Notes under the pieces: generated by a model | What the model was told of the DNA's origin: nothing | Seen by the model: only the letters and a program-made list of their open reading frames with translations | Database searches by the model: none | Assembly: GCA_023248955.1 (NCBI GenBank) | Contig: JAHFDP010000005.1 | Span: forward strand, 1-48,726 | Source of the DNA: Deltaproteobacteria bacterium | Lineage (GTDB): Bacteria; Myxococcota; Myxococcia; Myxococcales; JAHFDP01 | Direction: 5' to 3' | DNA length: 48,726 nucleotides | Shown: positions 47,930-48,726 of the stretch, piece after piece | Numbering within the stretch: position 1 is the first letter of the stretch | How the letters are laid out: the number at the start of each line of letters is the position of its first letter | Made by a program: the position numbers and the translations under genes

Positions 47930-47939
47930 GGGGTGTTTT

Positions 47940-48118
47940 AACCGGAAAACCACAGCTGCCGTTACCTACGACGGCCGATCGCAGCCCGGCTGCTTCAGTG
48001 CTCCTCCGGTGCCTCCTCAGCGCACCGAAAAGTGCGCTTCCGGGGGCTCCTCGTCCGCGCTTCGCACCCGAGCCGCGCTCGACCGTCTCGGTACCACGGC
48101 AACTGTGGATTTCCGGTT
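47940..48118. repeat. Long imperfect inverted repeat (MITE-like or structured RNA) filling the fmt upstream gap
   Basis: The left arm begins AACCGGAAAACCACAGCTGC (47940) and the right arm, read on the other strand from 48118, begins AACCGGAAATCCACAGTTGC. 21 of the first 23 bases match. With small gaps the pairing continues for about 50-60 bases per arm (for example GACGGCCGATCGCAGC against GACGGTCGAGCGCGGC). The loop of about 70 nt contains a smaller hairpin GCGCAC-CGAAAA-GTGCGC. The element ends at the kinase stop codon and starts 11 nt from the fmt ATG. Confidence 0.7.
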
Positions 48119-48726
48119 TAACCGACCAGCGCGAGATGCAAATCGCCAAGATGCGTTCCCGTGGTCATGCGCGGCAAGGCAACGCCGAGCGATTCGCAGC
48201 AGCGCGCGGAATCGAAGGCGGCGAGCGCGGGGGCGATCGATTCGTGCGCGGTCTCACCGGTAACGAGCGCACCCGCGTGATCTGTTGCTCCATCGCGTCC
48301 GTCACTTCCCGCGGCAAGAAACGCGAACGGCAATCCCGCGCAAAGCTCGGCGACACGCAACGCAAGATGTTGCGCGCGGCCCCCTATCTCCCTCGCCCCT
48401 ATCTCCCTCCCCGCTAGCGGGGGAGGGTTGGGGTGGGGGTCCCGGATCGCGATCGTCGGTTCTCCCGCTAGCGCGAGCAGAAACGGAGATTTGCGCGACT
48501 GCCGTGGTCCCTGTGGCCACGGCACGGCTCGCGCGGATGCGCGTAGTGGAGGGCCAGCATAGGCGCGAATCCAATTCGCCACGAGCTGCGCCGCTTCTTC
48601 GACAGTGCCACCAAACACAGGCGGCGGCTCGTCGAAATCGATTCCGCGCTCCGCGGCTTCGGCGCATGCGGCTTCCGCGAGCGAGGCCATGTCGGCGATT
48701 ACGCGATGGCGCGCGCGCCAGGTGCG
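48118..48726 (-). CDS. Glycerate 2-kinase (MOFRL family), 5' part beyond the window
   Basis: The minus-strand frame is open to the last base, so the N-terminus is missing. The visible C-terminal part has family marks: LALAGEPTIAI (GGE-like), GGRAQHLALRVAEL, AGSDGRDGATDHAGALV (MOFRL Asp-Gly motif) and PRMTTGTHLGDLHLALV at the end. The enzyme phosphorylates glycerate at the 2-position, in serine or glyoxylate metabolism. Between GEPTI and GGR the protein has about 16 residues more than the family norm, encoded by a palindromic repeat (PHPNPPPLAGREIGARE). The frame is kept, so the enzyme may be active. Confidence 0.8.
   Translation of the reverse strand, partial: RTWRARHRVIADMASLAEAACAEAAERGIDFDEPPPVFGGTVEEAAQLVANWIRAYAGPPLRASARAVPWPQGPRQSRKSPFLLALAGEPTIAIRDPHPNPPPLAGREIGAREIGGRAQHLALRVAELCAGLPFAFLAAGSDGRDGATDHAGALVTGETAHESIAPALAAFDSARCCESLGVALPRMTTGTHLGDLHLALVG
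48381..48443. repeat. Palindromic repeat inserted in frame within the glycerate kinase gene
   Basis: A 15-nt unit CCCCTATCTCCCTCG/C occurs twice in tandem (48381-48395, 48396-48410). A near-perfect palindrome follows, CCCTCCCCGCTAGC with GGGGGAGGG (48405-48427), then TTGGGGTGGGGGTC. This is the common intergenic repeat whose translation gives PHPNPPPLAG in many bacterial genomes. Here it is inside a coding region and preserves the frame. Confidence 0.8.

Follow-up and report, generated by a model that had tools for sequence, protein, structure and literature searches.

A REPIN-like palindromic repeat in frame in a glycerate kinase gene of Myxococcota

Results

The kinase gene and its neighboring repeats

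The window (the whole stretch of DNA analyzed, 48,726 bases) ends within a glycerate 2-kinase gene on the minus strand. The kinase analysis in the window covers the last 202 residues; the remainder of the gene lies outside, beyond a 100-N scaffold gap (G000:C19:48727-48826). The 121 bp at 48606-48726 are repeated exactly across the gap, at 48827-48947, an assembly feature, and the contig parts flanking it probably overlap. The kinase stop codon occupies 48118-48120; an intergenic stretch separates it from fmt. The following features were annotated in and beside the gene.

48118..48726, minus strand: glycerate 2-kinase gene, 3' part (202 codons and stop), MOFRL domain; from sequence and Pfam
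48492..48560, minus strand: REP2, a palindromic repeat unrelated to REP1 and also in the kinase frame, encoding about LRASARAVPWPQGPRQSR
48405..48440, minus strand: REP1 body, an imperfect palindrome (about 36 bp) lying between GEPTIAI and GGRAQH in the kinase frame
48420..48427, minus strand: 5' stem arm of the REP1 hairpin, CCCTCCCC; read from sequence
48405..48412, minus strand: 3' stem arm of the REP1 hairpin, GGGGAGGG; read from sequence
48379..48408, minus strand: two 15-nt tandem units overlapping the 3' arm, encoding REIGA-REIGG
48117..48121, no strand: TTTAA, right target-site duplication of REP3, containing the kinase stop codon
47942..48116, no strand: REP3, MITE-like, 175 bp, between the kinase gene and fmt
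47937..47941, no strand: TTTAA, left target-site duplication of REP3 (5 bp)

The protein is of the MOFRL type. Pfam family PF05161 (MOFRL) matches it with 55.3 bits (cut-off 28.3, E 8e-15), and its GE, GGR, and DGxDG motifs are invariant. Eleven alignment columns are the same in the window protein and all 49 homologues, including the motifs on either side of the REP1 insert; the GE and GGR motifs presumably line the active site. The reading frame is open across both REP1 and REP2, up to the normal C-terminus, and no second full kinase copy was found in the genome. An AlphaFold model of the 202 residues, made with the 49 homologues, has a mean pLDDT of 85.9 and a pTM of 0.84, and its Foldseek matches are the solved glycerate kinases 1x3l and 2b8n (TM 0.70 by query). 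Most of the predicted core scores above 90, while the REP2 block (residues 61-80; pLDDT 56 and 65) and the REP1 block (residues 101-110; pLDDT 55) are modeled as coil.

The REP1 insert

An earlier note on this DNA had placed a palindromic repeat inside the kinase frame, and it is indeed seen there on the minus strand with the frame open. The body (48440-48405 on the minus strand, ACCCCCACCCCAACCCTCCCCCGCTAGCGGGGAGGG) forms an 8-bp stem from CCCTCCCC and GGGGAGGG, and its loop, CGCTAGCG, is unlike that of every other copy. The tandem unit AGGGAGATAGGGGSS occurs twice (48394-48408 and 48379-48393; 13/15 identical), so that the whole feature with its tandem units spans 48379-48440. No REP1 match was found in 100 shuffles of the window.

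Between the GE and GGR motifs, the loop is 20 residues long here versus 5-11 in all 78 aligned homologues, none of which has the equally long loop that the earlier note named as refuting its reading. Loops of five or six residues account for 68 of the 78 (17 and 51, respectively); seven residues are found in two, eight in six, and 10 and 11 in one each. These homologues comprise 18 from the same order, which were aligned first and also fall within 5-11, and 60 named loci; some species appear twice, and hence not all are independent. The Anaeromyxobacter relatives (L107, L108) have a loop of eight residues, and the source genome is the sole member of its family in the genome set compared. The net gain from REP1 is 9-15 residues, most likely 12-14. 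The insert does add residues, as proposed, but fewer than the "about 16" first estimated, since the approximately 21 repeat codons replaced some host residues.

REP2 and REP3

REP2, REP3, and the coding copies described below had escaped the earlier note, which did recognize the tandem 15-nt unit and its REIGA-REIG product. The REP2 peptide follows a helix ending in WIRAYAG and precedes the strand FLLALAGEP. This site has 30 residues here versus 2-26 in homologues; because its length varies naturally, the case for REP2 rests on the DNA repeat. REP2 has 15 matches in the genome including itself, the best other one, on a different contig, being 91% identical over 57 bp. A further copy lies in frame near residue 158 of an alanine-racemase-N-type protein, whose 270-residue frame has the domain at 43-269, and REP2 is also present in the long frame of a BatA-type protein. 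The long frame of a phosphodiesterase-type protein contains three 19-residue REP2 copies, and at G000:C86:21956-22113 (L083, L077) three tandem 57-bp copies in a long frame give rise to 19-residue protein repeats.

REP3 is bounded by 21-nt terminal inverted repeats (CCGGAAA-CCACAG-TGCCGT). Ends of this type number 72 in the genome (control, 0), many of them paired at distances of about 175, 244, or 307 bp, and some longer composites have REP2 inside. Beyond the window, at about 1976-2070 of L021 (G000:C19:49875-49970), lies a pair of GTCATGGCCGGG-type palindromes, which we take to resemble CGTC-tagged REPs.

REP1 is a dispersed, REPIN-like family

Searching with the 22-nt C-rich half (up to three mismatches) identified 91 REP1 copies in the genome, and the reversed control gave none. 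The copies occupy 65 places: 45 single, 17 double, and three fourfold. In the 91-copy set, the 26 neighboring pairs are arranged '-+' in 22 cases, '+-' in four, and in direct orientation in none; in a 69-copy set, two of 22 neighboring pairs are direct. The commonest spacing is shared by 8 of the 22 '-+' pairs. This is the head-to-head order of REPINs and BIMEs. Two subtypes, with GCAAA-like and GTCAA-like loops, are paired head to head. The body measures 36-41 bp (57 copies measured), and a stem of at least 7 bp is present in 61 of 69 copies (raw count). Four of the six reading frames are stop-free in both subtypes and in the kinase copy. A frame runs through 39 of the 65 places and through none of the other 26. 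On the G-rich strand, GGGGGAGGGTYAGGGTGGGGG, a four-tract G-quadruplex form is found in 59 of 69 copies (raw count); such folding is putative.

The core motif occurs in seven of 195 genomes of the phylum, the source genome, with 52 exact copies, being one of them; each of the six positives among the 194 others has 1-5 copies. REP1 is a REP/REPIN-like family that is nearly absent elsewhere in the phylum. Target-site duplications of 3-8 nt are no more frequent than in shuffled sequence (57 copies), and plasmid records gave no match. The Y1 transposase/RAYT family (PF01797) has no match in the genome, which is 95.57% complete, such that a RAYT may lie in the missing part; with none found, we label REP1 "REPIN-like" and not a RAYT-borne REPIN. 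A GTAG tag lies within 14 nt of REP1 on the 5' side in 1/91 copies and on the 3' side in 0/91, and a CGTC tag is nearby in 6/91 and 4/91, respectively, which places REP1 in neither tagged group.

In-frame copies in other proteins

Beyond the kinase, a genome search found REP1 in frame in at least eight other conserved proteins. In total, protein homology supports an internal coding insertion, in frame, at no fewer than 9 of the 65 places, or 10 if the copy at the edge of contig C92 is counted. Coding calls drew on Pfam, comparison with solved structures, and inspection of the translation; as homology was the sole basis for judging a place coding, the count is a lower bound. Pfam covered the through-frames of 29 of the 39 places that have one.

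In LigD, REP1 lies in frame between the ligase and polymerase domains. Mfd has two copies, with 168 residues between aligned blocks versus 123 in the E. coli protein. An Lhr-type helicase has 56 residues versus 13 between aligned blocks, the second of which is weak. In RlmN, the repeat falls within the radical-SAM domain, with about 20 more residues than in 6fz6. Internal, in-frame copies are also present in a sarcosine-oxidase-alpha-like protein, an M23 peptidase, a metallo-beta-lactamase-fold protein, and a GH123-like protein found at two contig ends (C14 and C92). Three of nine hosts (LigD, Mfd, and Lhr) act on DNA, a proportion from a small sample that is raw for gene length.

Other candidates were rejected. 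REP1 lies upstream of the likely start in an ALDH (C40), QueC (C43), an ABC protein (C56), an aminotransferase (C37), and a DinG-like helicase (C93; name read from the translation). A further group is doubtful, terminal, or weak: an amidase (C48, C-terminus), BatD (C61, N-terminus), prepilin-type leaders on C6, C89, and C110, and a DUF255 protein (C39), whose 38-bit copy falls outside the 91. Long frames on C11, C53, C66, C108, and others have no family match and were excluded. In the three prepilin-type genes (N_methyl motif; L203, L019, L074), REP1 lies just upstream of or inside the N-terminal leader, and on C6 the leader peptide is seemingly encoded by REP1. Sorting of 45 places by codon usage was too weak to be of use: frame recall was 122/150 on its own training pieces, two places were called in-frame, and the kinase was missed.

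Of the 48,726 bases of the window, approximately 79% lie in long frames (12,897 codons). Randomly placed, about 51 of the 65 REP1 places would be expected in genes, versus at least nine shown to be internal and 26 without a frame. This informal comparison is consistent with selection having removed most coding insertions. The in-frame count covers in-frame copies only; frame-shifting ones stand outside it, and 19 pairs of neighboring same-strand frames are candidates for genes split by a frame-shifting REP1.

Tandem tails

The tandem unit of the kinase is an instance of a family-wide habit. Tandem tails follow the 3' arm in 14 of 67 copies, compared with none of 66 control flanks. A tail was called at 17 or more self-matches in 24 with a period of 10-26, the control being the 5' flank set behind the same arm; the 67 are those of the 69 copies with a recognizable 3' arm, two having been dropped. 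In the full 91-copy set, 80 have the arm (11 dropped) and 16 a tail, a raw count, as the control was made for the 67-copy set. The period is 15 in 7 of the 14 tailed copies. In the four coding hosts with a tail (the kinase, C14, C45, and C73), it is 15, 15, 15, and 18, each divisible by three; in the other copies, periods of 12, 14, 16, 21, and 23 are seen in addition to 15 and 18. The unit consists of the G-rich arm plus bases that vary between copies, and because these non-arm bases differ from copy to copy, the unit includes host sequence. The C14 and C92 contig-end versions of the GH123-like gene have unequal numbers of units, reflecting either two alleles, two paralogues, or a matter of assembly.

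Discussion

We consider it very probable that a REP1 copy inserted into the GE-GGR loop of the kinase and was tolerated, that a 15-nt unit was then duplicated by slippage, and that REP2 entered a different linker in frame. REP1 would have inserted without creating a target duplication, and its length and stop-free frames (four of six) would have let the kinase frame continue. Situated in a flexible loop, the resulting peptide, presumably translated, may be near neutral and so have been tolerated by purifying selection. Replication slippage at the hairpin would then have duplicated the G-rich 3' arm with adjoining bases, giving a five-residue repeat, while REP2 would have come to lie in frame in a separate linker of the gene. 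The claim that a mobile-type repeat had become coding sequence thus holds up well: the family is multicopy, the copy is in frame, the extra loop is missing from all 78 homologues, and the insert is predicted as low-confidence coil. Slippage, also proposed before, is supported by the tails (14/67 versus 0/66); that it came after insertion is an order we infer.

The kinase gene might instead be decaying, or be an assembly chimera, with the open frame a matter of luck in a G+C-rich genome. The scaffold gap about 290 bp upstream does break the gene and has a 121-bp repeated end, and the gene is crowded by two repeats and a MITE. Yet the invariant motifs are retained, the reading frame continues uninterrupted across both inserts, REP1 and REP2 both fall in predicted loops, no second kinase copy was found in the genome, and the same pattern recurs in at least eight other conserved proteins, all of which make decay or chimerism very unlikely. 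It is equally improbable that the insert was kept for an effect on the enzyme or mRNA, whether through the loop or through a transcript hairpin or G-quadruplex tuning expression. Its position between two invariant motifs would suit such a role, as would the four C/G tracts in 59 of 69 copies and stems of at least 7 bp in 61 of 69 (raw counts), but coding copies are read in several frames in unrelated proteins, which argues against one selected peptide. The insert is likely neutral rather than adaptive. An ordinary lineage-specific loop, repeat-like by composition since genome and repeat are both G+C-rich, and with the REP2 site variable in homologues (2-26 residues), is refuted by the recurrence of nearly the same DNA at tens of unrelated sites, against zero matches in controls, and by the 91% identity over 57 bp between the kinase REP2 and a copy on another contig. 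Insertion of REP1 and REP2 into tolerant loops is thus the reading we retain.

Insertions of this kind are already known. In Rickettsia, palindromic elements (RPEs) are found in intergenic DNA as well as in frame within conserved enzymes, and a Gmk with an insert is translated and active, according to the available portion of PMC2229807. The earlier note had likened the kinase insert to these elements; the likeness is one of outcome, in-frame insertion in conserved proteins (at least 9 of 65 REP1 places), REP1 itself being REP/REPIN-like and private to its lineage. The hosts are unrelated, and REP1, of about 36 bp, occurs mostly as singles or head-to-head doublets, a comparison made by description. 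Several RPE families are longer than REP1.

In several species, GTAG/CGTC-tagged REPs occur within genes, many of them DNA repair genes, and may fall in linkers or loops; they form head-to-head dimers, and clusters are repeated together with adjoining DNA (Di Nocera et al. 2013; PMC3733652, from the part available). REP1 shares the intragenic sites and head-to-head pairs but has neither tag. The words Anaeromyxobacter, Myxococc, and Deltaproteobacteria are absent from the main text of PMC3733652. REPINs with RAYTs are inverted REP doublets of fixed spacing with many copies per lineage (Bertels and Rainey 2011; PMC3116915, in part). REP1 likewise forms inverted doublets with a preferred spacing; it differs in that no Y1 transposase was found and 45 of 65 places are single. 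In Coxiella, MITEs in coding sequence, short non-autonomous elements, have been considered in relation to protein evolution (PMC5896051, in part). REP1 differs from MITEs in having no target-site duplication; the adjoining REP3 has one but is noncoding here. Searches for such repeats co-occurring with the words myxobacteria or Myxococcota found no paper in the literature collection searched, and the accessible portion of PMC12306157 yielded nothing on intragenic REPs. Within the reach of these searches, the untagged family and its lineage are new, as are the number of proteins decorated, the co-occurrence of two families in a single gene, and the arm-plus-flank tails.

It is possible, though on balance somewhat doubtful, that this lineage gains new protein loops from the two unrelated palindromic families entering many enzymes in frame, with the hairpin then driving tandem duplication of its own 3' arm and a few host bases, and 15- or 18-nt units in genes yielding new peptide repeats of five or six residues (kinase, GH123-like, sarcosine-oxidase-like, and Mfd). 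If true, arm-plus-flank tails would represent a distinct process of hairpin-primed slippage. The presence of LigD, Mfd, and Lhr among the hosts bears on the excess of repair genes, a question left open in the available part of PMC3733652. With at least nine decorated proteins and visible tail growth, this high-G+C lineage offers many natural cases bearing on the neutrality of inserts.
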